From: Muribaculaceae bacterium
GTDB taxonomy: Bacteria > Bacteroidota > Bacteroidia > Bacteroidales > Muribaculaceae
Direction: 5' to 3'
DNA: 37,409 nucleotides
Assembly (NCBI GenBank): GCA_022509065.1
Contig: JAFLTY010000020.1
Span: 8,246 to 45,654, forward strand
The position numbers and the translations under genes were made by a program. This document shows, piece by piece, positions 7,850 through 37,224 of the stretch (within the stretch, counting starts at the first letter, position 1; the number at the start of each line of letters is the position of its first letter). Below the pieces are notes generated by a model. That model worked only from the letters and a program-made list of their open reading frames with translations. It was not told the DNA's origin and did not search any database.

Positions 7850-7861
7850 TGGACTAAAAAA

Positions 7862-10701: not shown

Positions 10702-10732
10702 TTGACAAAGAGGAATGAAAAGAGAGAAAAAT

Positions 10733-11194: not shown

Positions 11195-11205
11195 GCTTAT
11201 ATTGT

Positions 11206-11628
11206 TCAGTTATTGATGGTTAGACGTTTGGTTAAGGATCCTGTTTGCAATATGTATACGCCCCGCCCGGGAGCTTTGATGCGGGTAGTTCCGGGTTGTA
11301 TGTTCTGATGCGTGATCAGTTGTCCCAGGATGGAGTAAAGGCGTATGGTGACAGTACGCGGTGTTGAGATGTAGATGTATTGACCTTTTACGGTTACCTC
11401 GGTTTTTTCGTTGTCATCAGTTTCGGTGACTGTGGAGGGTGCCGGTTTGTCGATTTGAGCCGTGAGATAGTCGCCTCTGGTATCTGGAGAGACCGCAAAC
11501 GCTGTCTTCGAAGAGTTTCCGAAAACGATTAGAAGGAGTATAAGACAACAGCGCACAAGAATGTTTCTCGGACTGTTGCACCAAGATGGCGGACACGAAG
11601 TCATGTCCGCGGTATGTGTCACACGCAT
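11206..11628 (-). CDS. Small secreted protein with sorting-domain-like C-terminus
   Basis: Read from ATG 11628 it has 140 residues. A GTG at 11640 lies at the predicted transcription start, and another ATG at 11604 is also possible. A hydrophobic segment (NILVRCCLILLLIVFG) followed by TAFA suggests a signal peptide. After a short Thr/Glu-rich linker, the last ~65 residues follow the layout of type IX secretion (Por) C-terminal sorting domains: IYISTPRTVTIRLYSILG, then QLITHQNIQPGTTRI, then GVYILQTGSLTKRLTI. In family proteins this tail sits on much larger cargo; here it is nearly the whole mature protein. Cargo function unknown. It is first in the operon containing dut. Confidence 0.65.
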   Translation of the reverse strand: MRVTHTADMTSCPPSWCNSPRNILVRCCLILLLIVFGNSSKTAFAVSPDTRGDYLTAQIDKPAPSTVTETDDNEKTEVTVKGQYIYISTPRTVTIRLYSILGQLITHQNIQPGTTRIKAPGRGVYILQTGSLTKRLTINN

Positions 11629-11644
11629 TTTTGATTTCACACTT

Positions 11645-11676
11645 CAAAATTAAAAAAATTCCACCTTATCGCCAAA
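11645..11676 (-). promoter_or_regulatory. Bacteroidales promoter for the small-gene/dut operon
   Basis: On the minus strand TTTG (11676-11673) is followed by exactly 20 bases and then TAATTTTG (11652-11645), an excellent match to the TTTG-N(19-21)-TAnnTTTG consensus. Transcription would start about 11639, making the GTG at 11640 unusable and leaving only a ~10-base leader for the ATG at 11628. Confidence 0.7.
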
Positions 11677-11678
11677 TC

Positions 11679-11710
11679 TTGAGTAGGCTCTAAAAAAATT
11701 TGTATTTTTG
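11679..11710 (+). promoter_or_regulatory. Bacteroidales promoter for the lipid kinase gene
   Basis: TTG (11679-11681), a 21-base spacer and TATTTTTG (11703-11710) form a good promoter. The predicted start of transcription (about 11716) is within a few bases of the ATG at 11719, so the mRNA would be nearly leaderless. Its upstream box lies only two bases from that of the divergent promoter. Confidence 0.65.
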
Positions 11711-11718
11711 CATACGTA

Positions 11719-12690
11719 ATGTCCGAAAAAATTTTTCTGATAATAAATCCGATTTCTGGGACACACCCCAAGGATAAACTTCGGAATCGTGTTGTCGAAG
11801 CACTCCGACAACATGGTTTCGAAGTGACAACTGCCCTCACCGAGTATAGCGGCCATGCGTCGGAGCTTGCCCGTGAAGCCGTCAAGGCAGGTTACAGCGG
11901 CGTCCTTGCATGTGGTGGCGACGGCACGGTCAACGAGGTGGCAAGCGCTATGATAAACACCGGTGTCCCCATGGGTATATTGCCGTCCGGATCGGGCAAC
12001 GGACTGGCTCGACATCTACTCATGCCCATTGACGCTATTCGTGCCGTCGATATAATCGGGCGAAGATGTATACGGGATTGTGATTGCGGAATTGTCAACA
12101 ATACGCCGTTTTTCTGTACCTTCGGGGTGGGTTTTGACGCGACAGTGAGCGACCGTTTCGCCGAGGCCAGCACACGCGGTGCGTTGACTTATGTTAAAAG
12201 CGCTCTGCAGGAATTTGCCTCTTATAAGCCGGTTCGTTATCATATTGATGCTGACGGAGAAGTCTTTGACGATGATGCTTTTCTGGTGGCTGTCTGTAAC
12301 GCCAATCAATACGGCAATAATGCCTACATAGCGCCGCGCGCGTCGATTACCGACGGCAAGCTCAACCTTGTCATTGTACGAAAGATACCACGGTTTGATA
12401 CCGTGATGCTCGGCATAGAGATGCTTTGTGGCACGCTTGCCGAAAACCATGGAGTATTGATGCGCGAGGCAAGTTCGATAACTATCGAGCGCAAAGGCGG
12501 AGGCCCTGCGCACATGGACGGCGAACCTCTTGTCGATGTGGGTGACAAGATTGTCATCGAGTGTTGCCCCGGTGCCCTTAAGTTGTTTACAAACCCTGAC
12601 AAACCTCCATTCCGTCCACTCATTACCCCTCTTCAGTCTGTCGTTAGCGATGTGGGGACGTCATTGAGAAATCTATTCGAAGAACTGTAA
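11719..12690 (+). CDS. Diacylglycerol/lipid kinase family protein (YegS/DgkB-like)
   Basis: The 323-residue protein matches the usual length of the soluble DAGK-catalytic family. The N-terminal IINPISGTHPKDKL, the nucleotide-binding CGGDGTVNEV (about residues 60-69) and PSGSGNGLARHL (about residues 94-105) are the family signatures. The C-terminal beta domain includes the usual metal- and phosphate-binding region (near HMDGEPLVDVGDKI). It phosphorylates a lipid such as diacylglycerol at the inner membrane; the exact substrate cannot be read. The start is fixed because the NPxSG motif begins at residue 10. The HAD-MurD gene follows after 44 bases with no promoter element between them, so co-transcription is likely. 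Confidence 0.92.
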   Translation: MSEKIFLIINPISGTHPKDKLRNRVVEALRQHGFEVTTALTEYSGHASELAREAVKAGYSGVLACGGDGTVNEVASAMINTGVPMGILPSGSGNGLARHLLMPIDAIRAVDIIGRRCIRDCDCGIVNNTPFFCTFGVGFDATVSDRFAEASTRGALTYVKSALQEFASYKPVRYHIDADGEVFDDDAFLVAVCNANQYGNNAYIAPRASITDGKLNLVIVRKIPRFDTVMLGIEMLCGTLAENHGVLMREASSITIERKGGGPAHMDGEPLVDVGDKIVIECCPGALKLFTNPDKPPFRPLITPLQSVVSDVGTSLRNLFEEL

Positions 12691-12734
12691 GACTCATAGC
12701 GCCAACTCGCGCTTAAATTAACAAAAACTGAAAC

Positions 12735-14816
12735 ATGGACTTTTTAAAAGGCATAAAAGGTATAATTTTTGATTACGGAGGCACAATAGATAGTCACGCT
12801 GATCATTGGAGTCATATCATATATGACGGTTGGAAAGCATCCGGTCTGGACATTGACCGTAATGTTTTTCGCGACGCCTATGTGCATGCCGAGCGCGAAC
12901 TGGCACGCGTGCGTCACATTTTGCCGGGAGATAATTTTCTTGAGCTTCTGCGTAAAAAAATGCGTATAGAACTGCGTTGGCTTGTTGATAACGGATATCT
13001 TTCAGAAGAACGTATTGAGCCGATTTCCGAATCGATAGCGCAATATTGCTATAGGGCGGCTCGTAGAAGCATAGAGGATGCCCGTCCGGTGCTTGAAAAA
13101 CTGTCAGAACATTACCCTATGGTGCTTGTAAGCAATTTCTATGGCAATGTCGATGAAGTCCTTCGTGACTTCGATTTGCGCAAATACTTTCGTGGGGTAA
13201 TAGAAAGCGCGGTGGTTGGCATTCGCAAGCCTGACCCCCGAATTTTTATGCTCGGAGTCGTGACCCTGGGACTCGAACCCGAAGAAGTGCTGGTTGTGGG
13301 CGACAGCCTCAAGAAAGACATTATGCCGGCGCGATCAATTGGCTGTCGGACAGCGTGGATAAAAGGGCGTGGATGGACAGAGGACGAAGACGCGGCTACC
13401 GACCCGGCGCAGATTTCCCGATTGGAGGACATTCTGGATGAAAGAGATGGCGCCAGAAAACAAAAGGTTGTGGTTCTCGGCGCCGGCGAGAGTGGCGTTG
13501 GCGCCGCTATACTGGCAAAAGACCAGGGTTACGATGTTTTCGTTTCGGATATGGGTCACATAAAGGCTCGTTATAGCAAAGACCTTGACAGAGAGCATAT
13601 AGAATATGAATCGGGTCAGCACACCCGCGAAAAAATTCTCGATGCCGATTTAGTGATAAAGAGTCCCGGTATACCGCGTGATGCACCCTTGATAGTCGAG
13701 CTGGCAAAACTCAATATCCCGGTCATCAGTGAGATAGAGTTTGCCGGTCGATACACAGAGTCTAAAATGATATGCATCACAGGCTCAAACGGCAAGACGA
13801 CCACCACGATGCTTACATATCATATCCTGCAGGAAGCCGGTGTCGATGTCGGTCTGGCTGGAAATGTCGGTAACAGTCTGGCATGGCAAGTGGCGAGGAA
13901 TCCTCATCGGGTATATGTTATTGAGTTGTCCAGTTTCCAACTTGATGACATGTATGACTTTAAGGCCGACATAGCCATCATGCTCAACATAACTCCCGAT
14001 CATCTGGACAGATATGATTATAAGTTTGACAACTATGCCGCGGCGAAATTCAGGATACTGCAGAACATGAAATCCACCGACGCTTTTATTTATTGGATGG
14101 GAGACCCGGTGATTCGCCGGTTTATGGATAGCATGGACTTGCCTATGCGGTTGTACGGTTTTACCGAGACAATGGCGGATGATACACCTTGTATTCCGGC
14201 TGCGTATGTTAAAGATGGACGATTTATCGTAAACACCCCCAGAACCTGTCTTGATTTCAACCGGGACGACTTGGCGCTCAAGGGAGTACATAATCTATAC
14301 AACTCGATGGCTGCGGCACTGACAGCTTGTCTGATAAACCTCTCATCTGACGTAATCCACCGTGCTTTGGCCGATTTTGGAGGGGTTGAACATCGTCTCG
14401 AATACGTTGCCACTATCAACGGTGTGCGTTACATCAACGACTCTAAGGCGACAAATGTAAACTCGGCTTACTATGCCTTGGGTTCAATGACTACCCCGAC
14501 AGTCCTGATACTTGGAGGTAAAGACAAGGGTAACGACTACTCGGAGATTCTGCCTCTTGTCAAAGAAAAAGTGAAGACTATCGTGGCAATGGGATTGCAT
14601 AACGAGAAGATTGTTGAATTCTTTTCTCCCCACGTCACGGTTCTGTCTACGGACAATCTTGCTGACGCACTTGCCGCCTGCGCTACTGCGGCTCAGCCCG
14701 GCGACACTGTATTGCTGTCTCCCTGTTGTGCCAGCTTCGACCTTTTCACCAGCTACGAAGACCGCGGCACCCAGTTTAAGGATGCCGTCAGAAGCCTTGA
14801 AAAGAAACTTGGATAA
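12735..14816 (+). CDS. murD: HAD-phosphatase / MurD fusion (UDP-MurNAc-L-Ala:D-Glu ligase)
   Basis: This 693-residue protein joins two enzymes. Residues 1-~230 are a HAD hydrolase: motif I DYGGT (nucleophile D13, with Gly15 where most family members have the second Asp), motif II S133, motif III K165 (RKPD), and motif IV D190/D195 (GDSLKKD). Residues ~244-693 are a complete MurD, which adds D-glutamate to UDP-MurNAc-L-alanine in peptidoglycan synthesis: VVVLGAGESG, the ATP loop GSNGKTTT (from residue 350), NITPDHLDRYD, INDSKATNVNS, GGKDKGNDYSE and LSPCCASFDLF. A stand-alone MurD is about 440-450 residues. No in-frame ATG lies at the junction, so MurD has no start of its own. The gene lies outside any mra/mur cluster. 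The partner phosphatase's substrate is unknown. Confidence 0.93.
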   Translation: MDFLKGIKGIIFDYGGTIDSHADHWSHIIYDGWKASGLDIDRNVFRDAYVHAERELARVRHILPGDNFLELLRKKMRIELRWLVDNGYLSEERIEPISESIAQYCYRAARRSIEDARPVLEKLSEHYPMVLVSNFYGNVDEVLRDFDLRKYFRGVIESAVVGIRKPDPRIFMLGVVTLGLEPEEVLVVGDSLKKDIMPARSIGCRTAWIKGRGWTEDEDAATDPAQISRLEDILDERDGARKQKVVVLGAGESGVGAAILAKDQGYDVFVSDMGHIKARYSKDLDREHIEYESGQHTREKILDADLVIKSPGIPRDAPLIVELAKLNIPVISEIEFAGRYTESKMICITGSNGKTTTTMLTYHILQEAGVDVGLAGNVGNSLAWQVARNPHRVYVIELSSFQLDDMYDFKADIAIMLNITPDHLDRYDYKFDNYAAAKFRILQNMKSTDAFIYWMGDPVIRRFMDSMDLPMRLYGFTETMADDTPCIPAAYVKDGRFIVNTPRTCLDFNRDDLALKGVHNLYNSMAAALTACLINLSSDVIHRALADFGGVEHRLEYVATINGVRYINDSKATNVNSAYYALGSMTTPTVLILGGKDKGNDYSEILPLVKEKVKTIVAMGLHNEKIVEFFSPHVTVLSTDNLADALAACATAAQPGDTVLLSPCCASFDLFTSYEDRGTQFKDAVRSLEKKLG

Positions 14817-14840
14817 AGGCGAATCGCTCAGCCTGTTGGT

Positions 14841-15893
14841 TCAGCCTTTGCGGAGTTTGGGGGTGCTGTTTTTTGTCAGGGCTATGCAGACGAAGGTGAA
14901 CAGACCCAAAGCTATAAGCAAGAGTGTCTGACATCCCATTACCAGATTGGCAAAAGCTGTGGCTGGTTCCTGCGCAAGACCATACATTCCGAGCGCAACG
15001 ATTACTGACCATTGCCAGGGTCCGATGCCTCCATTGGAGGGTACGCCCATGGCAAGACTCGACAGTACAAAGGTGACCAAAACCGCCAGTATGCCATATT
15101 CGCGTATAATGTCGGTGGTGAACCCGAAGGCATAAAAAGCTATGTATAGCTGGAAAAAATAGCATCCCCAAATGCATAGCGTAAGCAGAATCCATCGTCC
15201 TTTGCCGCGCATGGTAGCTACTACTGCGAAGCCTTGCCACAAACCCTTGACAAAATGTTGCAATTTGCCGATCAGTCGGTTTTCGGTGGGTCGTTTCAGA
15301 AACCACCAGGCAACGGCCACACAAGCTGCGACTCCAAGCCACAACCACGGCGATGTGGCTACTGTGAAGACCCATTCGAGAGTGCCTGAATTTTGGGAAA
15401 GGTATGACCCGATTTGATGGGAAGCCAGCAAAAAAGTGACTACTGTAAGCAAAAGCACGGTGACAGTGTCGGCCAGTCGGTCAGCCACCATGGAACCGAA
15501 GACCGTGGCAAAAGGTGCATCCTGACGTTTGGATATATATCCGGTGCGCCATATCTCACCCAGGCGAGGTAACACGAGATTGACAGCGTAGGTGCCGAAA
15601 ATGGACAGTATGAGAGGAAACAATGGCGTGTCAATACCCAAGGCGCGCAATTGTATTTGCCAACGCATGGCACGGAATATATGACTGAAAACGGCTACTC
15701 CAAGCGCTATGCCTATAAAAGTGAAATCGCACTGTTTAGCGATGATGTCCATCATCTCGTCAAAATTGACATCACGAAACAGCATGACGCACAGGAGTAC
15801 TGTTATTAATAACGGCACTCCATATTTAAGGATGTATGTCAGTACGTTACGTGCCGCACTTTTAGGCTTGTTCGAGACTTCGGCGTTGCTCAT
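14841..15893 (-). CDS. Membrane protein with lysylphosphatidylglycerol synthase TM-like domain
   Basis: The 350-residue protein has about eight hydrophobic helices and the family pattern of PF03706/UPF0104: an early RAMRWQIQLRALG, then NLVLPRLGEIWRTGY, VADRLADTV and a late GGIGPWQWS. In MprF this region flips a modified lipid; stand-alone members of unknown substrate are common in Bacteroidota. There is no aminoacyl-transfer domain. Its ATG overlaps the dipeptidase stop (ATGA at 15893-15890), so the two are translationally coupled. The next gene (HAD-MurD) is convergent, 25 bases away, with no clear terminator. Confidence 0.82.
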   Translation of the reverse strand: MSNAEVSNKPKSAARNVLTYILKYGVPLLITVLLCVMLFRDVNFDEMMDIIAKQCDFTFIGIALGVAVFSHIFRAMRWQIQLRALGIDTPLFPLILSIFGTYAVNLVLPRLGEIWRTGYISKRQDAPFATVFGSMVADRLADTVTVLLLTVVTFLLASHQIGSYLSQNSGTLEWVFTVATSPWLWLGVAACVAVAWWFLKRPTENRLIGKLQHFVKGLWQGFAVVATMRGKGRWILLTLCIWGCYFFQLYIAFYAFGFTTDIIREYGILAVLVTFVLSSLAMGVPSNGGIGPWQWSVIVALGMYGLAQEPATAFANLVMGCQTLLLIALGLFTFVCIALTKNSTPKLRKG

Positions 15894-19089: not shown

Positions 19090-20853
19090 TTAGTGTCTAA
19101 CCACTGTCTTGTTTACTGTGGTGGTGCCGTCTTCATGCACATTGCGTACGATATATACACCGTCTGACGGAGTGGTCACTTTTTGACCGGTGATGGTGTA
19201 ATATTCGGTCGAAACCACTTTGCTGTCATTTGTCACTTTGGACACACCGCTCTCTTCAGTCACTTTTCCGGTCTCTATATCGAGAGTCACCAGGTCGCTG
19301 TATGTCGTGACACCGTCGTAAATGTATGTCATCTGCACACCGGCAGTCTTGATATAACGTTGGTATATGCCGATCTGATGGTAGGTGGCTGTACTGAGAT
19401 AGATGTCCCAGTTGTTGTTTACGCTATAGGGAACCAATGTGGTGGGGCCTTCAAGACCACTGTACACGTATTCTTCGTCGTCGGGAACGAAAGTCATGAT
19501 TTCGCCATCGATATATACGCTGTAATACAGGCACGAAATGTCAAGCAGGTCACCCGTGGTAGATGTCATGGGAAGCTCGAAATCGAACGATGTGTATCCG
19601 TAGTAGTCCCACAGGAAAGGAGTCCACCACAGCGCATAGGGATTCGCCGGAGTGCCGGAGTACGATGCATTCTGAAGTATCTTAAGGTCGGAGAATGCGT
19701 CGACATAGTTCAGTGTCTCCGTGCCGCTGTTAAACAACAGATATAGGTCGGGATCGGTGCGTGTCAGCGAGTGTGCTTCGGCGTCATAGTCGAAAACATA
19801 ATCGGCGTCGGTCAACAGGTATTCGGGGCTGAAAGCGTTCCACTCCTGATAGTCGGGGTTACGGTAACCGCACATTGTGTAGATGTAATATACATCGTCA
19901 TCGAATTCGAAAATGCCAAGGAACTGCTTCTGCGGGAACACCACTTTGTCGCCTTCTATGCTGCCTTTGATTGCAAGATTCCTCAAAGTGCCGTAGTTGC
20001 ACAAGCCTTTTATGTACATGTCGTTGCCGTCTATGGCCACTTCGACCTCATAACCCGAATCGCCGCTTACGCAGTTGTATATCTCGGTCGTGCAGTTGGC
20101 CGGTATAGACACTGCGGTGTCTTTAAACAATGTGTATGTCTGCGAAAAATCGCAATAACCCAACCAATCGCCATAAGCCTGGTCTACAATTCCCAGAGAG
20201 TATTCGCGAGGGTCATCGCCGGTAGCGGGTTCACCGGGAAGTTCGAGCACCCAACTGCCGTTTTCGTCCTGGATGTATCGTATGCTTGTGAACGATTCGG
20301 CGGGAAAATAAGAATAAGCCAGTTCGCCGTCTTCATCGATAAACTCTCCGAGTTTAAGCACGTTAAGGGTTATCTCCAATGGCAATTCGCCCGGAACCTC
20401 TTCATACGCGAGAGTCTGAGGCAAAGGTATCTCGATTTGGTCACCTAACTTATAACCTTTGACATAGCTCCCGAACGGTGCCTTGTTAAGAATGTCATAT
20501 ATATAAACCTCGTTGCCGTCCTCATATATAGTGGCTTGGATGGCGCCCGCTTTGTACGGTTCGAGCCACGACCCTAAAAACATGAAGTAGCCGTCGCAAC
20601 TTTTTTGGTAAGTTGCCGGAGTGCCGGACGGCACGGTGATTATGCCATGGTTGTCGGTGGCGGCGGCTTTGGCTTTGCGAATAAGAGAGCCGTTTTCAAG
20701 AGCCTCCAGGGTACGACCCGGTTTGGCTTTACAGGTCACGGCGCGAGGTGTTTGGGCTTTTTCCGAACGAGAGTCTGTCAAGTGGTTAACGCCCGCGTAC
20801 GATGCGCCACAGCACATCAGTGCCGCTAACGTTAAAGTAAAGAGTTTTGTCAT
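19090..20853 (-). CDS. Secreted protein of unknown function with sorting-domain-like tail
   Basis: The start is ATG 20853 (587 residues), giving a good signal peptide (MTKLFTLTLAALMCCGASYA). The longer frame to 20946 runs across the promoter. The mature protein is acidic, beta-rich and full of Tyr, Asp and Gly, with repeated segments like VYIYDILNK, DDVYYIYTMCGYRNPD and EEYVYSGLEG, suggesting several beta-sandwich domains, perhaps for glycan or surface binding. The last ~70 residues (VVSTEYYTITGQKV then GVYIVRNVHEDGTTTVNKTVV) resemble the C-terminal sorting-domain class of Bacteroidota. No enzyme motif recognised. It is divergent from a similar secreted protein at 21074. Confidence 0.72.
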   Translation of the reverse strand: MTKLFTLTLAALMCCGASYAGVNHLTDSRSEKAQTPRAVTCKAKPGRTLEALENGSLIRKAKAAATDNHGIITVPSGTPATYQKSCDGYFMFLGSWLEPYKAGAIQATIYEDGNEVYIYDILNKAPFGSYVKGYKLGDQIEIPLPQTLAYEEVPGELPLEITLNVLKLGEFIDEDGELAYSYFPAESFTSIRYIQDENGSWVLELPGEPATGDDPREYSLGIVDQAYGDWLGYCDFSQTYTLFKDTAVSIPANCTTEIYNCVSGDSGYEVEVAIDGNDMYIKGLCNYGTLRNLAIKGSIEGDKVVFPQKQFLGIFEFDDDVYYIYTMCGYRNPDYQEWNAFSPEYLLTDADYVFDYDAEAHSLTRTDPDLYLLFNSGTETLNYVDAFSDLKILQNASYSGTPANPYALWWTPFLWDYYGYTSFDFELPMTSTTGDLLDISCLYYSVYIDGEIMTFVPDDEEYVYSGLEGPTTLVPYSVNNNWDIYLSTATYHQIGIYQRYIKTAGVQMTYIYDGVTTYSDLVTLDIETGKVTEESGVSKVTNDSKVVSTEYYTITGQKVTTPSDGVYIVRNVHEDGTTTVNKTVVRH

Positions 20854-20932
20854 AAAGATGGTTTTTGGATTAGAAAAAATACATATTGGAAACCTTAATG
20901 CAAATTGAAGAACAAAACGATTAAAGTTTAGG

Positions 20933-20963
20933 CAAAGGTACGACATTTTCGCATCATTGCCAA
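20933..20963 (-). promoter_or_regulatory. Bacteroidales promoter for the secreted-protein gene
   Basis: TTG (20963-20961), exactly 20 bases, then TACCTTTG (20940-20933) on the minus strand. The predicted start is near 20927, leaving a leader of about 74 bases to ATG 20853, which supports that start codon. Confidence 0.68.
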
Positions 20964-21073: not shown

Positions 21074-23401
21074 ATGAATAAAATATCATTTTTGGCACTC
21101 AGTGTTTGTTTTACACTGTCACTATCGGCTCAAACTGCAGACTTGCAGTTGTCAACTCCTGTGAACAAGCAACTGTCTGCAAAGAATACAAACCGTAATG
21201 TTTCGTCAGTCCATAAGATAACCGGAAACATTACCGAAGAAACCGTTGTTTTAGACAATGGCTTAAAAATAAAGACCGTAAAGGGTCTTCCCGAAAGCGG
21301 CAAGTCAATAAACCCCGAGCGTATGTCTCCCTCCAAGGTCAAGGAAACCCCGGAAGGATATAATTTTTATGAAGACTTCGAGGAGTGGGACGGCGAAGAT
21401 GCCGCGTGGCTTCCCGAAGGGTGGATCATCGACCATAAGAACTCTCCCGTTTCCGACCGTGGGTGGAAAATGACACAACCACTCTCGTTATACGATTATA
21501 TTGACAGTAAGTGCTTGACTTACGAGGTTTTCGAAGACGAGGTCGATGAGTGGGCAATAACCCCCGAAATCTCAGTCAGCCGTGGTATGGAACTGCGCTG
21601 GAGCACCATGACAAGCCCATATTTCTATGATTGGTCGTATCTTAACAATACTACTTTTCAGCTTGACAAGTACGAGATAATCAACGACATCAAAGTGAAC
21701 ATATCGATTGACGGCGGTCAGACATGGGCGACAGTCTTCAGTCACGCTCAGGATCTTATCGACACCGCTCCAAGCTTTTTCGCCATGTTCGATTACAGGG
21801 TTCGTCCTTTTGTTTTGTCACTAAATAAATATGCCGGTCAAAAAATCAAGGTTGGTTTTCAGATTGTTGGACACGGTGGCAACACTACCTTTATCGACGA
21901 TGTCGCCGTGGGTTTGCCACTCACCGATACCTCCTATAAGCGTCCGCTATCAAATCTTTATTTCGGAATTTGCGAAACCGACGAATTTGTTCCCGCGTCC
22001 ATCATGGCAGGTCCGGTGTTCGCACCCGTTACCTACACCAATATGACCTCGACTGCCGGTGCCAAATTCGAATGGTCATATTCCACAGGCGATGACCTCC
22101 TCACCTCTTCTGACAAAAATCTCACAGTGTCTTATCATACGGACTACACCAGCGATTTTACCACACGCAACAATCTTTACGAATTCCCTGTGCTACGCGC
22201 CTGGTCCACTTTGACGGCTCCGGTCGATTTTACTTATCCCGGATTCTATCAGGCAGGAGGCTGTGGTGAATACGAACGCTATTTTACCAATACCGAAGAG
22301 TATGAAATCATAAACCTGGGTCTTACTGTGGCTGATCCTTTTACCGAGGGGACTGCAACCTACGCCGATATCATACTGCCTTACTTCGGTTATAATCACG
22401 AGTCGGATCGCTACTGGTCAGATTATTCGTTTGGCGACTACGCCGATGAAAACAACTGGGCGCATCTCGTAAAAATAGCCGATTTCTTTTATACTCCCAA
22501 TGTGCCTCTTGTCATCGACGGTGTTCACACACTCGCCTATGGCAAAATAAGCCGAGACGCTGTCCTTACCGCCGAAATATATCTTATTGATGGTGGTTTT
22601 GTAGTGTCCGACACACCTTACGCCACGGCAATTTGTACCGGCGAAGATATCGGCATTACCGACCGCTATTCGGGCAGCGATTTGTTGTCGCTTAACTTTA
22701 AGTTTGATAAACCCATTGTCATGACCAAAGAGGTCGCCCAGTATTTTATTGTGGCTATAGGCGGCTTCCACGATGCTGATAACGTGGAGTATTTCTCGCC
22801 CGAAATGTCCGCTTATTCCAATCCTAACAACCTTGGTCTGGGATGGGTCGGCAAGGAATTGTGCTTGGACGGCACAAGGCTGCCTCTGTCATGGTCGCCG
22901 GTCGCTAACCATACCGATGACGAATTGGTCTCATTCTATATCATGCTTGACGCCCATCTCCCATGGCTCGAAAGCGAAACCGACGTGGTGACAGTTTGTG
23001 GCGATGACACCAATACTGAAGTATCCCTCGACAGCTATTACCCCGCCTCAAGCCTTCAGGTGGATGGTCTTCCCGACTGGATATCTTGCGCTGAAATAAC
23101 AGGGCGGTATGGCGATACCAAACTCACACTTTCTCCTATATTCAATACCAACGACAACGATAAAGCCACCATCACAATACATGGACCCGGAGTCAGCAAA
23201 CAAATTAACCTCGAATCGAAGGCCTCATCTGTCACAGATATTCCCGTTGATGACTCTAACGCTCCCATAGAGTTATACACTCTTGATGGCCGAAGGGTGA
23301 GCGGTAGCGGCTCGACCGGTCTCGATTCGGGTGCTTCAAATCTTGCTCCCGGTATTTATATCAAACGCCAGGGCTCAACCTCCACCAAAGTGCGACTCTA
23401 A
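21074..23401 (+). CDS. Secreted adhesin-like protein with choice-of-anchor J-type domain
   Basis: The 775-residue protein has a signal peptide (MNKISFLALSVCFTLSLSAQ). After a ~75-residue linker comes a domain with the look of cleaved-adhesin / choice-of-anchor J modules: FYEDFEEWDGEDAAWLPEGW, then WAITPEISVSRGMELRWS, and KVGFQIVGHGGNTTFIDDVAV near residue 275. Such modules are jelly-roll folds in surface or secreted binding proteins. Further beta domains follow, and the tail (APIELYTLDGRRV then LAPGIYIKRQGSTSTKVRL) is sorting-domain-like. Ligand unknown. It ends before a strong terminator at 23511. Confidence 0.75.
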   Translation: MNKISFLALSVCFTLSLSAQTADLQLSTPVNKQLSAKNTNRNVSSVHKITGNITEETVVLDNGLKIKTVKGLPESGKSINPERMSPSKVKETPEGYNFYEDFEEWDGEDAAWLPEGWIIDHKNSPVSDRGWKMTQPLSLYDYIDSKCLTYEVFEDEVDEWAITPEISVSRGMELRWSTMTSPYFYDWSYLNNTTFQLDKYEIINDIKVNISIDGGQTWATVFSHAQDLIDTAPSFFAMFDYRVRPFVLSLNKYAGQKIKVGFQIVGHGGNTTFIDDVAVGLPLTDTSYKRPLSNLYFGICETDEFVPASIMAGPVFAPVTYTNMTSTAGAKFEWSYSTGDDLLTSSDKNLTVSYHTDYTSDFTTRNNLYEFPVLRAWSTLTAPVDFTYPGFYQAGGCGEYERYFTNTEEYEIINLGLTVADPFTEGTATYADIILPYFGYNHESDRYWSDYSFGDYADENNWAHLVKIADFFYTPNVPLVIDGVHTLAYGKISRDAVLTAEIYLIDGGFVVSDTPYATAICTGEDIGITDRYSGSDLLSLNFKFDKPIVMTKEVAQYFIVAIGGFHDADNVEYFSPEMSAYSNPNNLGLGWVGKELCLDGTRLPLSWSPVANHTDDELVSFYIMLDAHLPWLESETDVVTVCGDDTNTEVSLDSYYPASSLQVDGLPDWISCAEITGRYGDTKLTLSPIFNTNDNDKATITIHGPGVSKQINLESKASSVTDIPVDDSNAPIELYTLDGRRVSGSGSTGLDSGASNLAPGIYIKRQGSTSTKVRL

Positions 23402-23727: not shown

Positions 23728-24063
23728 ATGGACAATCTTCAAGAAAACCTTATCTCGGGTGTTGTCAACGCTGCTGGCTCGACAACCCTTTCAGCCGAAG
23801 ACGTCAGTCGTAACCAATCCCGGGAGTCCGACGCTGACATTTCGGAGAGCTCAACATCAGCTGTCTCCGTCGATACCAATCCTTTTGACGAAGCTGCAAT
23901 CGACCGTTTCGCCGATCGCATAATAGAGCGAATACGTCAGGCCGAGGAAAACGGGTTCAAAAAAGCAGTCGAAAAGGTGCGTCAAAACCCCGAACAATTC
24001 GGCATAACGTCATCAGTTCCCAATTTCCTCGCTGACATACGCCCCGACATTTGGGAGAACTGA
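23728..24063 (+). CDS. Small acidic protein, first gene of capsid cassette
   Basis: This 111-residue protein is not recognised by sequence. The first half is Ser/Thr/Asp/Glu-rich and probably disordered. The second half (from about residue 50, FDEAAIDRFADRIIERIRQ onwards) is predicted to form a charged helix or coiled coil and ends NFLADIRPDIWEN. A small acidic helical protein directly before a major capsid gene is the usual place for a scaffold or decoration protein in tailed-phage head modules, so a scaffold-like role is possible by position only. It is the promoter-proximal gene of the cassette, 137 bases before the capsid gene. Confidence 0.6.
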   Translation: MDNLQENLISGVVNAAGSTTLSAEDVSRNQSRESDADISESSTSAVSVDTNPFDEAAIDRFADRIIERIRQAEENGFKKAVEKVRQNPEQFGITSSVPNFLADIRPDIWEN

Positions 24064-24123
24064 ATGCCGCCATGTTAAGCATCCGCTTTTAAAAAGATCA
24101 TTAGATTCTTAAAACCTTTTTCA

Positions 24124-24137
24124 TATCCTGCAGGATA
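24124..24137. repeat. 14-bp perfect palindrome between the first cassette gene and the capsid gene
   Basis: TATCCTGCAGGATA is a perfect palindrome in the 137-base gap. It could be an operator for a dimeric regulator or a short mRNA hairpin; there is no T-tract after it. Confidence 0.4.
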
Positions 24138-24200
24138 AATCTTAATCTTTTACACACAAACAAAATCACTTAACCACAAACCTACAAACAACTAATTACT

Positions 24201-25448
24201 ATGTCTACATTATCACAATCGGGCAATGCCACCCAGGTAAACGGCGCTCCTCTAACCACCACAGTGACCAACTCCGTCGGCACGTTGCTGTCAGCCGAAA
24301 TTGACAAAAGAGTAACTAAAATCCGCCCCATGGCTACTCCTGTCGACCAGCTGTCGCGCTGCGGCGATATACGTCATGCCGGCTCTATGAAGGTGCAGTA
24401 TTACACAGCTGATGTCAAGGAAGTCTCGACCAATATTTCCAGCGATTATACCGGTAGCGACTATCAGGCGCTCCCGAACGGCGATCAATCGTCCGGTCAG
24501 CTCACGCTTCATGTCGACAATCCCGCCATTTTCTCGGTGTCCGAAACCATACTCATGCCTGAGGTAACCATCAATAAAGCGCCTCTTATGCTCTATCTTA
24601 CAAAAGTCGATGTCGACTCCATCTCGGGCATTGTTGTCAACGAAATCAAAAATGCCGGTACTACATTCAATATGGGCGTAAAGACCGGTCGTAAGGTAGT
24701 ACGCATGGGGCGTGCGGCAGGCGAACTTGACGTTCAGACTCCTCAGTTCGAGACTATACCCAAGCGTAGTGAAAACTACTGTCAGATTTTCAAGATGCAA
24801 GTCGAAGAGTCAGCAATACACAGACTGGCCAACAAAGAGGCTCAGTGGGGTTTCAGCGACCAGGAGGAAGTGGCTATCATCGACATGCGACAAGGCATGG
24901 AGAAAAACTTCATTTTCGGCCGCAAGGCTATCATCACAAACGGTACAACTCCCGATGAGATTTATATCACCGGAGGTATATGGAATCAGGACGGTTTGCA
25001 GGAATATAAATACGAAAAAGAATCGTTCACCGAAACCAATCTCATAGAAATATGCCGTAAAGTGTTTACCGGCGGTAAAGGTTCGGCACGTAAAATACTG
25101 ATGGGTGGAAGTGAGTTCATCGAGATGCTGTCCAACTTGCCTTATCAGAAAGTGGTGAACGGTGCCGACTCAGTGACACGATGGGGTCTTGAGTTCCGAG
25201 AAATAAAATCCAACTTTGGCACTCTCTATGTCATCCATAACGAAATTTTCGACCAGTGCGGTCACGAAAAAAGCGCTATGGTCATCGACCCCAACATGCT
25301 CACAAAGTATGTGCATATACCCTTCTCGACCCAAAAACTCGATTTGCGCTCGGCAGGAACTCGCAACACTGATGCGGTGGTCATTACCGAAGCATCCTGC
25401 CTGGTACTTCGCAACCCCGCGTGTCACATGCGCATCGAGGCCGAATAA
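24201..25448 (+). CDS. Phage-type major capsid protein (HK97-fold, SU10/DUF5309-like)
   Basis: The 415-residue protein resembles the SU10-type / DUF5309 major capsid family. The N-terminus has the typical RPMATPVDQLSR segment, the middle carries long helices and loops (AIHRLANKEAQWGFSDQEEVAIIDMR), and the end has GGSEFIEMLSNL, then FGTLYVIHNEIFDQCG, AMVIDPNMLTKYVHIPF and TEASCLVLRNPACHMRI. Assignment is by pattern and by a portal-like gene downstream. These proteins self-assemble into icosahedral shells. No maturation protease gene is present in the cassette and no obvious cleaved N-terminal domain is seen. Its base composition matches the surrounding chromosome rather than a recent insertion. 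Confidence 0.75.
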   Translation: MSTLSQSGNATQVNGAPLTTTVTNSVGTLLSAEIDKRVTKIRPMATPVDQLSRCGDIRHAGSMKVQYYTADVKEVSTNISSDYTGSDYQALPNGDQSSGQLTLHVDNPAIFSVSETILMPEVTINKAPLMLYLTKVDVDSISGIVVNEIKNAGTTFNMGVKTGRKVVRMGRAAGELDVQTPQFETIPKRSENYCQIFKMQVEESAIHRLANKEAQWGFSDQEEVAIIDMRQGMEKNFIFGRKAIITNGTTPDEIYITGGIWNQDGLQEYKYEKESFTETNLIEICRKVFTGGKGSARKILMGGSEFIEMLSNLPYQKVVNGADSVTRWGLEFREIKSNFGTLYVIHNEIFDQCGHEKSAMVIDPNMLTKYVHIPFSTQKLDLRSAGTRNTDAVVITEASCLVLRNPACHMRIEAE

Positions 25449-25484
25449 TTCACCTTGTTTGTCCCCTTCAACGTTATTTTTACA

Positions 25485-26051
25485 ATGTTGATAACTCTTG
25501 ACGACGAACGCATGCTCGGACTATGGCGCGAAGGCGCCGGTCTCGAGCCGGCGTTGGCCGACGCTTCGATAGAGCGTTTCGACGGCCTCGATATTAATAC
25601 TGTGTTGCGCGTCGCGATGCGAGCCTGGTACGTAAGATACCTTCACGACGCTCCTGTCGATATGGCGCCTGTGACCAATCTGCTTCCATACGCTAAAATG
25701 ACACGGGCTTCGTTGCCCGACACATGGTGCGTCAACCTGGCTTGCCGGACAGCAAGAGTCTTGTCATTTGACATCGAGGGTTATGGGTCTCTCCCGGTAA
25801 TCAATCCTTATGATGACAAAAACAGGTCGCTCATGGCTGCCATGGCAAACAAGTTTGTGCGAAATGGGGCGCGTCCCACGGCTTTATATCGTCCCGGTGC
25901 CGACTCGGTCTTTGTGGGATTGCCTTCAAACGCTAATCCTGTCATAAAGGCTGTTATGGGGGTGCGAGTTACCGACGACGATACTTTTGTTGTCGACGAA
26001 CGAGTCCTTGCTGACATCCCTCTCCTTGCAAAAGAAGCTCTTAACCTTTAA
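25485..26051 (+). CDS. Unknown protein between capsid and portal genes
   Basis: Read from ATG 25485 it has 188 residues; a TTG ten codons earlier is less likely. I do not recognise the family. The N-terminal half is helical (DERMLGLWREGAGLEP, then INTVLRVAMRAWYVRYL), and the second half is mixed alpha/beta with FVGLPSNANPVIKAVMGV near residue 150. No signal peptide and no catalytic motif. By position it could be a head-completion, adaptor or ring-type protein. It begins 36 bases after the capsid gene and ends 12 bases before the portal-like gene, so it is surely co-expressed with them. Confidence 0.7.
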   Translation: MLITLDDERMLGLWREGAGLEPALADASIERFDGLDINTVLRVAMRAWYVRYLHDAPVDMAPVTNLLPYAKMTRASLPDTWCVNLACRTARVLSFDIEGYGSLPVINPYDDKNRSLMAAMANKFVRNGARPTALYRPGADSVFVGLPSNANPVIKAVMGVRVTDDDTFVVDERVLADIPLLAKEALNL

Positions 26052-26063
26052 TACTCTAAAACT

Positions 26064-27356
26064 ATGTCTTCACAAATAAACCGTCGCGTGTTCGACACTG
26101 TCGTCGAACTCTGGGGAACGCGTGTTCCACTCATGAACATGCGTGACCGTCTTAAACGATACACCTACGGTGACCAATGGGGCGACATCGTCTATGACGA
26201 CAACGGTGTCAGAATCATCGAATCCGAATTGCTTAAACGCTCAGGCCGTCGCCCTGTGTCAAACAATCTGATCAGGCGTCTCGTAAAGGCTGTCATCGGA
26301 CGATACCGCGAAATGGCTGTCAGTAACTTATGGTATGACACACCCGGTACGACTTCCGATATTGTCGCCGATCTCGATGAGCTGGATTGTCGCCTTCTGG
26401 AGGAGTTCCTTATTTCGGGGATGGCCATACAGCGTGTCGCCGATGACGACCCTCTGGCAGGACACATCCCCTGTGTCCGGAACGTCAGTCCCGACAAATT
26501 TTTCTGTAACGCCTTCCGTGACCCGGCGGGAGCCGACATCGACATGGTGGGAATGTTGCATGACATGTCGCCGGCCGAGGTGTTCATGCGCTTTGCCGGT
26601 AAGCGGGGCATGAACAGTCAAAAGCTGGGGCATGTGTTTGAAGCCTCGCGAAACCGTATCAATACTTTACCAAGTGCGCCTGCCGATTTATTTATCGCAG
26701 AACCGGGTCGGTTGCGTGTCATTGAGGTATGGTCGCGCGAGTTCGATAATGCCCGTAACTTGCTTTGGCGCGTCAGGTGGTTCGCTCCCGACGGCACTTT
26801 GCTCGATTCGTACACGTCTCCTTGGGCGCATGGAACTCATCCTTTTGTCGTTAAGTTCTATCCTCTCACCGATGGCGAAATACATTCCTTCGTTGAGGAT
26901 GTGGTCGAACAGCAGCGCTACATCAACCGTATCATCGTTCTTATTGACCGCATAATGTCAACATCTGCCAAAGGTGTGCTTCTTTTCCCAACGTCACAAA
27001 AAGAAAGCAAAATGTCCTGGGAGGAGATATGCAAACGATGGGCAGCCCCGGACGGTGTCATTCCCATAACGGGTAACGGACCGCATATACCCACGCAGGT
27101 CAGTGGAACCAACGGCGATCTTAGTGCCTATCGGCTACTTGAAATGGAACTTAAACTATTTGACCGGACAGCAGGTGTCGGCGCTGCTCTGCTCGGCGAA
27201 GCCGATGGCGAAAGTGCAACTCAGGGTATAGAGAAACTCAGAGCAAAGGTCGAAAACGCTACAATTGCGCTCGCCGACATCTTCTATACCTTCCGGGCTC
27301 ATATACGCCGACGTGATACCAAACTCAATGCCATCTGCTCACCCCGGCAGAAATAG
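26064..27356 (+). CDS. Phage portal-like protein
   Basis: The 430-residue protein follows the layout of tailed-phage portals: an N-terminal RLKRYTYGDQWGD, then RPVSNNLIRRLVKAVIGRYRE, an acidic segment leading to CVRNVSPDKFFCNAFRDP, the wing strands VIEVWSREFDN and WRVRWFAPDGTLLDS, then WAHGTHPFVVKFYPLTDGE, the helix VEDVVEQQRYINRIIVLIDR and the Q/N-rich crown-side helix near GVGAALLGEADGES. Portals form the 12-mer ring at one vertex through which DNA is packed. Many portals are 450-700 residues, so this one is short at the C-terminus. No terminase is found near it. The stop codon lies in the first unit of a 9-base tandem repeat. Confidence 0.7.
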   Translation: MSSQINRRVFDTVVELWGTRVPLMNMRDRLKRYTYGDQWGDIVYDDNGVRIIESELLKRSGRRPVSNNLIRRLVKAVIGRYREMAVSNLWYDTPGTTSDIVADLDELDCRLLEEFLISGMAIQRVADDDPLAGHIPCVRNVSPDKFFCNAFRDPAGADIDMVGMLHDMSPAEVFMRFAGKRGMNSQKLGHVFEASRNRINTLPSAPADLFIAEPGRLRVIEVWSREFDNARNLLWRVRWFAPDGTLLDSYTSPWAHGTHPFVVKFYPLTDGEIHSFVEDVVEQQRYINRIIVLIDRIMSTSAKGVLLFPTSQKESKMSWEEICKRWAAPDGVIPITGNGPHIPTQVSGTNGDLSAYRLLEMELKLFDRTAGVGAALLGEADGESATQGIEKLRAKVENATIALADIFYTFRAHIRRRDTKLNAICSPRQK

Positions 27357-27387
27357 CTAAAATAGCTTTGATAGCTACAATAGCTAT
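27352..27387 (+). repeat. Four tandem 9-base repeats (nATAGCTnn) over the portal stop codon
   Basis: ATAGCT occurs at 27353, 27362, 27371 and 27380, an exact 9-base period. The 9-base step keeps the TAG in the portal reading frame each time, so the natural stop is followed by further in-frame stops (TAG 27363, TGA 27369, TAG 27372, TAG 27381). Confidence 0.85.
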
Positions 27388-27426
27388 CCAACCCCTTTTG
27401 TTAATCCAAAAACATTCACACCAATC

Positions 27427-27783
27427 ATGTCATCAGAAACTTTTCATATTTCAAAAACCGAAATCATCGACACGGTACTGGCTCTTTCGGCACTCCGGGG
27501 TGATGTGACAGGACGTGGCATGCTGCTCGTTGACAACGACAGCGTGGCCTTGGCTGCCGTCCTCAAAACACTCGTGCCAAAATGCCTCACTGAGCATAAC
27601 ATCGAATTTCAGGAGGATGATTCGGGATGGACAATAGGCCCGACGGCCTTTGACAAGAGCGTCTTGGCGGACTATCTCATTTCGGGATTGCTTTTCCGCA
27701 TCACCGCCAACGAAGCATGTCGCCCGAGGCTTCTCCACGAGCCGTTCCCATCTTCATCATCAAAAATACAACCTTTCTTCTGA
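27427..27783 (+). CDS. Small unknown protein, last gene of capsid cassette
   Basis: The 118-residue protein is not recognised. It appears alpha/beta (EIIDTVLALSALRGD, then LAAVLKTLVPKCLTEH, FDKSVLADYLISGLLFRI) with a Ser/Pro-rich end and no signal peptide or membrane segment. By position it might be a head-tail joining or regulatory protein. It follows the portal-like gene after 70 bases and its stop is 35 bases from the convergent endonuclease gene, so it closes the transcription unit. Confidence 0.65.
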   Translation: MSSETFHISKTEIIDTVLALSALRGDVTGRGMLLVDNDSVALAAVLKTLVPKCLTEHNIEFQEDDSGWTIGPTAFDKSVLADYLISGLLFRITANEACRPRLLHEPFPSSSSKIQPFF

Positions 27784-35665: not shown

Positions 35666-36019
35666 CAGACCGAACCGCAGAAGCCCGGCCTTGGGTAACG
35701 AGGGGAGGGATGCAAGACATATTGTTATAGAGCGTTTATCCGACGCTTGTTCTTGACATACTGAAATGTGGCAATTTCAACTCTCAATCAAGAATAAGAC
35801 AACGATGAATGCCTTGTGGATATGTAATATCCTGCGGCGGTGCACGGTTACCGCTGTGGTTAATTGCATATTTTGCGTGAGGCTTCTGAGTTGTTCATCT
35901 TATTGAGAAGGCGAAGCCACATGCCAAGTATGTGAGATGGACAGCAGGTAAGTTCCCCACGCATTCTTTTTGTTAAATGAAAACGCCAATTTCTGGGGAG
36001 AATTGGTTTATATAATTTT
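35666..36019 (+). ncRNA. Highly structured leader or small RNA, about 350 bases
   Basis: At least six perfect or near-perfect hairpins can be read: AGCGT/ACGCT (35731/35743), a two-tier arm TTCTTGA/TCAAGAA (35750/35788) enclosing TGAAAT/ATTTCA (35762/35774), GGATAT/ATATCC (35818/35827), CGGCGGT/ACCGCTG (35835/35850), GGCTTC/GAAGCC (35881/35913) and CACAT/ATGTG (35918/35930). A last hairpin (35986-36006, loop GGGG) is followed by a T/A-rich run and the ATG at 36020. UCCCCA (35954-35959) can pair with that GGGG loop or with GGGGA at 35702. There is no tmRNA, RNase P or SRP signature. It is more GC-rich than the genes it precedes. It could be a cis-regulatory leader or an independent RNA; the class is unknown to me. 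Confidence 0.6.
35986..36006 (+). promoter_or_regulatory. Start-proximal hairpin, possible attenuator
   Basis: CCAATTTCT-GGGG-AGAATTGG forms an 8-bp stem with one bulged T, followed by TTTATATAATTTT and ATG 36020. It resembles a terminator or attenuator placed immediately before the coding region. Confidence 0.45.
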
Positions 36020-36412
36020 ATGGAAGTAAGCAAAAACGGTAAAACAAATGATTTTTATTCTATCAAAAAAGAATATGATATCCTCAAAAGTGTTTACAAC
36101 GATGGTCTATTTTTCCTTAAAAAGAAGGGAAAAGACTCAGAGGAAACATTAAATGTATTAGTATTAGATGTTATTGACCATATATTCGTAATTTCTTTTA
36201 CTAAGGATACAAATAATAAAGTTTACACACTCATAGAAAACCTATTTAAAAATCTTGATAAGAAAAGATTTACGTTACTATGTGAACATGACATCTTTCC
36301 GCATCCATGTGCCATGGCCGTTGATGAACATCTTAATAAACGACAAGAAGATGAAAAATTCTATTGTACTATAAAAGAAATAAGTTACGAGACAGGATGT
36401 ATGTTAGTGTAA
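36020..36412 (+). CDS. Unknown AT-rich accessory protein upstream of HEPN gene
   Basis: The 130-residue protein is not recognised. It is Lys/Asp-rich with no signal peptide or membrane segment and looks alpha/beta (TLNVLVLDVIDHIFVISF, then KVYTLIENLFKNLDKK and RFTLLCEHDIFPHP). It has AT-rich codon use unlike the chromosome to the left, which suggests horizontal transfer. It lies 28 bases before the HEPN-like gene and directly after a structured leader. By gene order it could be an antitoxin, immunity or sensor partner, but nothing in its sequence proves that. Confidence 0.65.
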   Translation: MEVSKNGKTNDFYSIKKEYDILKSVYNDGLFFLKKKGKDSEETLNVLVLDVIDHIFVISFTKDTNNKVYTLIENLFKNLDKKRFTLLCEHDIFPHPCAMAVDEHLNKRQEDEKFYCTIKEISYETGCMLV

Positions 36413-36440
36413 TGTAGTTATATAATAATTAGTTAATTAT

Positions 36441-36902
36441 ATGAATCAAGATAGAACGGATCTGTTCATTGAGGATTCGGTGGAAAAAGGAAAAATGATA
36501 GATTTTCTAATTTTTTACAAAAAAATCAGCATCATTCATACCGATAAAGAATTAGACAATAAATTTCCACAAATAAAACCATTTATTAATGATAAAATAG
36601 GGAAACAAAATCTTATCCATATAACAAGAGAGGAACTCAATTCTTATGATGTATATAGTATGTGCCCAAATTCCATTGCTTATACTGTAAAATATACGAA
36701 AAGTTTGTGTTTTCTTCGACACTTAAGGAACTCCATTGCGCATTGGAATCTTAATTATCAAGATGACAAGTCAGATATAATAATCTTTAAGGATTTTAAA
36801 GATACTAGTAATAAGACGTTAACTTGTTATGGAATTATTAAGGAGGATACTTTTAAAGAAATTATAAATGAAATTTCAAAACTTCTAAATGAAAATCAAT
36901 AA
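36441..36902 (+). CDS. HEPN-like protein with Rx4H motif (possible RNase)
   Basis: The 153-residue, mostly helical, AT-rich protein contains HLRNSIAHWN with R96 and H101, the R-x4-H motif that defines catalytic HEPN ribonucleases in toxin-antitoxin and defence systems. The context of the motif (LRNSIAH) and the length suit the pEK499_p136-type HEPN group. HEPN proteins cleave RNA as dimers to stop growth or phage infection; this function is inferred from the motif, and some HEPN relatives are inactive. The gene follows the unknown 130-residue gene and is followed at once by a repeat-protein stub. Family call is moderate confidence. Confidence 0.65.
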   Translation: MNQDRTDLFIEDSVEKGKMIDFLIFYKKISIIHTDKELDNKFPQIKPFINDKIGKQNLIHITREELNSYDVYSMCPNSIAYTVKYTKSLCFLRHLRNSIAHWNLNYQDDKSDIIIFKDFKDTSNKTLTCYGIIKEDTFKEIINEISKLLNENQ

Positions 36903-36903
36903 A

Positions 36904-37224
36904 ATGATGAAAACAAAAATAATCCTTATTTTAATTGGAATAATAGTTTCCAGTTTCACAGTTACACAAGCCTACGATTTCGCGGTTGACGGCATATTTT
37001 ATAATATTACAGATAAATCGAATAAAGAAGTAGGGATAACATATAGCTCTTCAAAATATAAAGGCCAAGTGGATATACCTTCATCAGTCACTTATAATGG
37101 AACAACTTATACAGTGACAAGTATAGGAAGAGATGCTTTTCGGGATTGTACCGAACTCACCTCAGTAGCAATTCCCTTTTCGATAAAGAATATAGGTATT
37201 TATGCTTTCAACAATTGTATTTAG
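36904..37224 (+). CDS. Truncated BspA-type leucine-rich repeat protein
   Basis: Read from ATG 36904 it has 106 residues (an ATG at 36889 would overlap the HEPN gene). It starts with a signal peptide (KIILILIGIIVSSFTVTQA), then the conserved start of Bacteroidales BspA/LRR_5 surface proteins (DFAVDGIFYNIT, then VTYNGTTYTVTSIGRDAF) and only about one and a half repeats (RDCTELTSVAIP, IGIYAFNNC) before a stop. Normal members have many repeats and several hundred residues, so this is probably a 3'-truncated remnant. No further repeat is seen after the stop. Confidence 0.7.
   Translation: MMKTKIILILIGIIVSSFTVTQAYDFAVDGIFYNITDKSNKEVGITYSSSKYKGQVDIPSSVTYNGTTYTVTSIGRDAFRDCTELTSVAIPFSIKNIGIYAFNNCI

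Follow-up and report, generated by a model that had tools for sequence, protein, structure and literature searches.

The stretch of DNA studied here (the window; 37,409 nucleotides of a Muribaculaceae bacterium, assembly GCA_022509065.1, contig JAFLTY010000020.1, positions 8,246 to 45,654) carries at positions 23728-27783 a compact cassette of five forward-strand genes, among them those for a major capsid protein and a portal protein. With a probability of roughly 0.7, the cassette encodes the head of a podovirus domesticated long ago, the genes of which lie dispersed over the chromosomes in the window's family and in six more of the same order and would form a viriform that packages DNA in the manner of a gene transfer agent (GTA). 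The domestication of phage genes is well supported. From the conserved gene set we infer the packaging of DNA and, likewise, the formation of particles, the packaging of host DNA in them, their release and their delivery, so that a tamed virus would perhaps pass genes between bacteria. The family is called Muribaculaceae in most record titles, from which all family names were taken.

Capsid and portal genes of the cassette

The initial annotation described two of the cassette genes as major-capsid-like and portal-like, and profile searches bear out both assignments; all five reading frames are present and open as annotated. The capsid protein (24201-25448) is of the SU10 type, with matches to the Pfam family SU10_MCP (PF17236, E=1.8e-50, 172.5 bits against a cut-off of 24.1) and to the PHROG 1328 major head protein (8e-12), and the profile of its family reaches the solved major capsid structure 9in6 (3.5e-14). 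An N-terminal hydrophobic, signal-like stretch precedes the capsid domain in seven related loci (L033, L043, L045, L047, L049, L002 and L052) and is absent from the capsid of the window. The portal protein (26064-27356) is of the P22 type and matches P22_portal (PF16510, 1.6e-8, over the cut-off) and the PHROG 156 portal (3.9e-27); its family profile reaches the portal structure 8jov (1.1e-8).

The portal of the window measures 430 amino acids, compared to 621-714 in four aligned unreduced relatives, namely a phage portal and three of other families. Since all seven aligned family portals are devoid of the C-terminal 102-145 residues of these four, the shortness does not result from a local truncation. 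The portals of the window and three other family members also lack about 50 residues in their interior. In P22, the C-terminal part of the portal forms a barrel inside the head. The window lineage keeps 82 of 84 near-invariant positions of the capsid (defined on the other 51 relatives kept), 97 of 101 of the terminase introduced below and 46 of 48 of the portal.

Three small genes, to which no kind had been assigned, can now be linked to the cassette (25485-26051, 23728-24063 and 27427-27783), the second by position and a C-terminal motif and the third by a weak match. Immediately before the capsid gene, 23728-24063 encodes a 111-amino-acid protein in the position where related phages encode a presumed scaffold of 251-263 amino acids. 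A profile built from 27 family proteins, with phage and window copies left out, recovers phage and outlier proteins in the fetched loci at 7e-10 to 2e-4 and reaches the window's own copy at E=0.14 only, which is therefore assigned by position and by its C-terminal 'RPDIWEN'. A shortened relative precedes the capsid gene in 50 of 80 loci (E up to 1e-3). Downstream of the capsid gene lies an adaptor candidate (25485-26051), a conserved protein in the head-to-tail position, whose frame opens at TTG 25455 with the first ATG at 25485. The same family is encoded downstream of the capsid in related phages too, and in 49 of the 69 loci with enough sequence the capsid gene is followed within 2.5 kb by both adaptor candidate and portal. 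The 118-amino-acid product of 27427-27783 is a weak match (E=0.0024) to D2, a conserved cassette family placed after the portal in related loci, the profile of which also matches gp24 of Bacteroides phage BS-TP4 (4e-4).

Packaging genes elsewhere in the genome

According to the initial annotation, the cassette was isolated: intact head genes without packaging genes, and no other phage genes. This description applies to the window and breaks down beyond it. On another contig of the same genome, a second locus (G000:C9:4945-9153) contains a phage structural-type protein, termed C1, adjoining a terminase large subunit (7525-9105), which rules out an isolated cassette without packaging genes. C1, of 816 amino acids, is a relative of gp26 of phage BS-TP4, and the two genes stand side by side in most family terminase loci examined, usually away from the capsid. 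Recurring capsid partners were found by clustering neighbouring proteins in related genomes. One C1 protein, used as a query, had matches in 58 of 146 related genomes; the C1 of the window's own genome was not among them and came to light through clustering, beside the terminase.

The terminase of a related genome (G069) matches a PHROG terminase at 1.3e-16, and the terminase profile matches T4 gp17 at 3e-19. The residues which we take to be Walker A, the Walker B glutamate and the nuclease acids D/E/DD are identical in all 14 aligned terminases, that of the window's genome included. Aligned with T4 gp17, the terminase shows significant similarity around Walker A, the Walker B glutamate and the last acid pair.

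Many loci have, after the portal, a gene of another small family, D1. The D1 profile finds phage genes in the fetched loci at 3.6e-15 (L002) and 4.8e-14 (L052), and in six of seven phage or prophage-like loci (the exception being L271) the D1 gene is immediately upstream of the terminase gene in the same orientation or is separated from it by a single gene. Because of these matches and this position, D1 is regarded as a small-terminase candidate. Two proteins were tried as tail fibre candidates and rejected: a 1270-amino-acid protein of G113 was found in 8 of 146 genomes including its own, in the others over part of its length only, and a 617-amino-acid match in L044 failed to align as a relative. 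Profiles of the adaptor candidate and of C1 returned nothing credible when compared with solved structures.

Distribution and synteny

Among the 146 related genomes, most of them drafts, the capsid was matched in 78, the portal in 81, the terminase in 82 and D1 in 78. Window-type genes of the 87 genomes of the window's family were sorted and tallied by hand, with phage-type relatives set aside: the capsid is present in 72, the portal in 70, the terminase in 70 and D1 in 68, with all four in 54, capsid, portal and terminase together in 59, and any of them in 80. In the 40 family genomes that are at least 97% complete, the counts are 35, 34, 34 and 34, respectively, and the presence of capsid and terminase is associated (Fisher p=0.0007; 67 genomes at least 90% complete). 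When 393 genomes from across the order were sampled, 33 matched: 25 belong to six other families and six to the window's family, and G105 and G394 are single cases with weaker capsid scores. All 25 capsid-bearing genomes of the six other families also have the terminase. A scan of bacterial species genomes yielded 374 capsid relatives; 70 of the 80 listed are titled Muribaculaceae, Porphyromonadaceae or Bacteroidales and the remainder bear various submitters' names. One cultured mouse isolate, recorded as 'Muribaculaceae bacterium Isolate-002 (NCI)' (L169), possesses capsid, adaptor candidate and portal.

The genes are usually dispersed. Of 30 capsid loci that extend for 9 kb or more to either side, only 3 include the terminase, and the flanks of the capsid locus differ among lineages, agreeing in some of the closest ones (L183/L200, L184-L186). 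In the single-contig genomes G342 and G375, capsid and terminase are 32-33 kb apart; in G342, examined in detail, the 33 kb between them hold two class II tRNA synthetases, a pseudouridine synthase, gpsA and secA. The suggestion of the initial annotation that the capsid is domesticated, and not left over from a larger prophage, is upheld by this arrangement, and synteny in the single-contig genomes rules out a prophage remnant there. Outside the family, the capsid cassette stands beside fumarase in six of seven genomes with a capsid locus examined, in five families (the exception is G107).

A contiguous order occurs in relatives of G069. Here, C1, terminase, scaffold-position protein, capsid, adaptor candidate, portal and a D1 cut by the contig end follow one another over 9.4 kb (L354), and a second piece runs from a cut terminase through D1 to D2 (L353). 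This order may be near the founding arrangement or may reflect later regrouping. Together with L355, these pieces jointly carry the contiguous eight-gene set and are filed as viral in the IMG/VR database; L353 and L354 nest among the family capsids, and all three are probably chromosomal pieces.

Inheritance and selection

Maximum likelihood trees of capsid, terminase and rpoB were calculated from the 38 genomes having all three genes. Capsid and rpoB share 14 of 35 splits, capsid and terminase 13, and terminase and rpoB 14; 500 label shuffles gave at most 3, 2 and 3 shared splits, respectively. At a support of 95, rpoB has 13 splits, with which every one of the 11 from the capsid tree and 14 of the 15 from the terminase tree are compatible. 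Patristic distances correlate at 0.36 between terminase and rpoB and at 0.51 between capsid and terminase.

Close pairs show purifying selection across orthologues, a check proposed in the initial annotation. By the Nei-Gojobori method, the ratio of non-synonymous to synonymous substitution rates (dN/dS) is 0.016-0.15 for the capsid and 0.03-0.29 for the portal in the printed pairs with dS up to 1, and 0.09-0.41 for the terminase and 0.15-0.31 for the adaptor candidate in all printed finite pairs. No pair of C1 proteins was close enough for this measure.

Relation to circulating phages

A search of IMG/VR with the capsid alignment gave 119 relatives. Only 5 of the 80 listed reach 45% identity, namely four short pieces with the same genes (L353-L356) and L002, and the others lie at 23-37%; all 80 listed loci from bacterial genomes reach 45% identity, in a scan whose patterns partly differ from those of the IMG/VR scan. 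In a capsid tree, chromosomal capsids and IMG/VR pieces stand on one side of a branch and phages on the other (56 and 38 rows, support 98); the first group includes three short IMG/VR fragments, L002 and three capsids of other families, and three long phage rows were dropped. The window-type capsids are accordingly placed by their sequences in a clade apart from the phages. A test of the family capsids alone as one clade was rejected (p 3.8e-9), which says little because three nested short IMG/VR fragments were left outside the named group. In an earlier capsid tree, with IMG/VR pieces labelled viral, the label needs four changes. The side-chain carbon of the capsids averages 2.83 as against 2.87 in phages (p 0.001; 52 and 41 rows); no weight is given to this difference because the relatives are not independent.

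L002 (IMGVR_UViG_2681813420_000001) has the phage-like order terminase, D1, scaffold, capsid and adaptor candidate, and its capsid groups with chromosomal capsids of other families; it may represent an early stage of domestication. The Bacteroides phages BS-TP4, BKO1-TP3 and BF1-TP2 possess a homologous capsid of about 34% identity. BS-TP4 and prophage-like loci in five genomes (G004, G029, G050, G075 and G105) resemble the window-type set in having portal, terminase, scaffold-position and small-terminase-candidate genes, and differ from it by their long portals and large fibre proteins; the annotation of BS-TP4 also includes an endolysin and a reverse transcriptase. The capsids of BS-TP4, G029, G075 and G105 fall outside the window's clade (G105, on a long branch, was dropped from the second tree), and those of G004 and G050 form a further lineage that was left out of that tree.

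Six family genomes without the window-type set (G006, G012, G014, G035, G048 and G077) carry divergent relatives with portals of 506-565 amino acids. The prophage-like locus in G050 has a capsid that shares 62-72% identity with those of G012, G035 and G077. The divergent set is compact in G077 (L265, G077:C17:80000-99900, 6628-15270) and lies within 15 kb in G006 (L264) and G012 (L263), while its portal and terminase are on different draft contigs in G014 (L266/L267), G035 (L261/L262) and G048 (L259/L260). A younger, parallel second domestication may be seen here. At L263:5814-7712, a fibre-like protein with a DUF4886 domain occupies the place where the giant phage fibre would be.

Comparison with gene transfer agents

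In one overview, GTA viriforms are characterized by caudoviricete-derived proteins, caudovirion-like particles and the packaging of mostly random host DNA, by full endogenisation, often at multiple loci, with genes that cannot all be packed in one particle, by mostly vertical inheritance and co-diversification with the host, and by DNA delivery to recipients (PMC9662315). Three of these features are found in the Bacteroidales set. The SU10_MCP, P22_portal and terminase large subunit matches point to caudoviricete-derived proteins; the window locus and G000:C9, as well as G342 and G375, attest to full endogenisation at multiple loci; and the sharing of splits with rpoB, the compatibility of strongly supported splits and the fumarase site in five families speak for mostly vertical inheritance. 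The set is accordingly filed as working like a GTA, not as a proven member. Joint packaging of all genes is unlikely where loci are far apart, yet one lineage has a contiguous set of about 10 kb. The conserved terminase motifs would be compatible with the packaging of host DNA.

Among the closest known systems, with a comparable gene set, is FpGTA of Faecalibacterium prausnitzii, reported in 2026 as the first podovirus-like GTA and packaging 8.4-8.9 kb (PMC12946183). Both systems comprise a podovirus-type small-terminase candidate, large terminase, portal, scaffold and capsid in about 10 kb and a second locus elsewhere; FpGTA is likewise found in a gut commensal, is spread across its host genus, and no tail is identified on its particles (PMC12946183). 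FpGTA belongs to another phylum, and its particles, proteomics and packaged DNA have been demonstrated (PMC12946183), whereas the Bacteroidales set is known from its genes, extends over seven families or more and may be divided among three or more sites. The second operon of FpGTA contains a holin and an endolysin (PMC12946183). The Rhodogtaviriformidae (RcGTA) and BhGTA of Brachyspira are also caudoviricete-derived, endogenised at multiple loci and mostly vertically inherited; they are experimentally established, in contrast to the inferred function here, and the relatives of the Bacteroidales set are P22/SU10-type podoviruses (PMC9662315).

On balance we lean towards an unreported, independently exapted GTA of Bacteroidales, derived from a podovirus captured before the seven families split, in which about eight genes, often scattered, would make DNA-filled particles that move host genes between bacteria abounding in the mammalian gut; RcGTA, by comparison, is siphovirus-like. 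The captured virus would have been stripped to a portal minus its C-terminal part, a short scaffold and no tail fibre. Most probably, the dispersed genes would be activated by host regulation in a small number of cells, where scaffold, capsid and portal would assemble into a procapsid of small size. Chromosomal DNA would be loaded into it by the terminase, together with the small-terminase candidate in genomes that have one, and a short-tailed particle would then exit on lysis and deliver its DNA to kin. Scaffold-position protein, capsid, portal, adaptor candidate and an apparently active terminase are conserved together, which suggests that selection keeps DNA-containing particles. Where the genes occupy different loci, a single small particle would hardly have room for all of them, as in gene transfer agents. 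A literature search that most subscription papers and bioRxiv lay outside brought up no paper in which Muribaculaceae or S24-7 are connected with gene transfer agents, and some papers hold both 'gene transfer agents' and 'Bacteroidota'.

Weighing of the evidence

Several observations weigh against a domesticated, DNA-packaging viriform. None of the four window-type genes is present in 7 of the 87 family genomes, six of which have a divergent relative. In G030, which is 99% complete, the portal is split over two frames and no terminase was matched, and several terminase matches elsewhere contain stops; gene loss therefore occurs. In the alignment with T4 gp17, the first nuclease acid falls in an insignificant stretch only and the middle acid is unaligned. 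C1 is poorly conserved, with 13-25% identity to the copy of the window's genome, in which no recognisable D1 small terminase was detected. Matches to a phage fibre N-terminal domain were limited to 8 of 146 genomes, all of which have phage-type or divergent genes, and no fibre was found for the window-type set. At a support of 80, compatibility with rpoB falls to 14 of 18 splits for the capsid and 14 of 21 for the terminase. The patristic distances of capsid and rpoB correlate weakly (r=0.14, with 993 of 10,000 shuffles as high), and at -0.21 within the 19 family genomes outside the window's genus. This is read as uneven rates on deep, saturated branches and counts against a clock-like reading; room is left for some transfer of genes between lineages. 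The window lineage itself has no close pair for dN/dS, and its capsid sits on a long branch.

The initial annotation had proposed a domesticated capsid with several possible uses. Its domesticated state is sustained by intact, conserved and mostly vertically inherited genes under purifying selection, and of the uses considered a GTA head module is best supported, because a terminase kept with conserved active-site motifs would be needless for an empty compartment or a capsid-interference defence. Such a defence, by which capsid, portal and terminase relatives poison the assembly or packaging of related podoviruses, is an unlikely explanation for which two observations speak: related prophages occur in the same family (L268, L269, L270 and L272), and phage-type or divergent relatives are found in six of the seven family genomes without window-type genes, compared to 5 of the 80 others. 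This contrast does not carry the argument, because those six genomes hold compact or apparently dispersed divergent relatives, not complete prophages. The co-conservation of terminase active-site residues with an assembly set also goes beyond the needs of interference. A protein compartment or another shell without DNA, used for storage, secretion or killing, would accord with the shortened portal and scaffold-position protein and with the failure to find a tail fibre; an encapsulin-type compartment consists of a shell protein with cargo and needs no portal or terminase. Here both co-occur with the capsid and are kept as often as it is, the terminase with conserved ATPase and nuclease residues, which makes such a use very unlikely.

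Slightly less credit still is due to the idea that the conserved genes donate heads to a phage satellite and package a mobile element encoded elsewhere. No recognised replication or integration genes accompany the packaging set in the loci examined, which speaks for this idea, but the genes sit at chromosomal loci far from one another, agree in tree topology with rpoB and extend over seven families, while satellites and their helpers are usually sporadic. The smallest probability is given to a prophage remnant on its way to loss, or a prophage split by draft misassembly. Draft genomes predominate and damaged copies exist (the G030 portal, stops in some terminase matches); against this, G342 and G375 are single contigs with capsid and terminase 32-33 kb apart, in G342 with housekeeping genes between, and the same site beside fumarase recurs in five families, together with purifying selection and a distinct clade. 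Neither a contiguous integrated element nor general decay was found, as the loci are unlinked and the frames mostly intact. The domesticated viriform thus remains the preferred reading.

Other features of the window

As annotated initially, the base composition of the cassette is that of the host (G+C 0.499 versus 0.491 over the first 35 kb), and its third-position G+C is in line with neighbouring genes. The description of the flanks as ordinary chromosomal DNA holds where Pfam matches exist (a DEAD-box helicase, endonuclease I, cytidine deaminase and FKBP isomerases); two large frames directly to the left of the cassette (19090-20946 and 21074-23401) have no Pfam match. A single frame at 12735-14816 combines HAD-type hydrolase and Mur-ligase-type (MurD-like) domains. 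Near the right end, at 36001-37000, G+C drops to 0.27, compared to about 0.49 in the first 35 kb, and this stretch is possibly a recent insertion.

Implications

Conjugative elements and phages are the usual explanation for gene exchange among gut Bacteroidales. If the interpretation as a domesticated, DNA-packaging viriform is correct, a host-owned chromosomal packaging system would constitute a new route of gene exchange in these bacteria, and the taming of the phage would predate the split of the seven families. Cultured mouse commensals would then offer named genes, such as those of the capsid and the terminase, for deletion.

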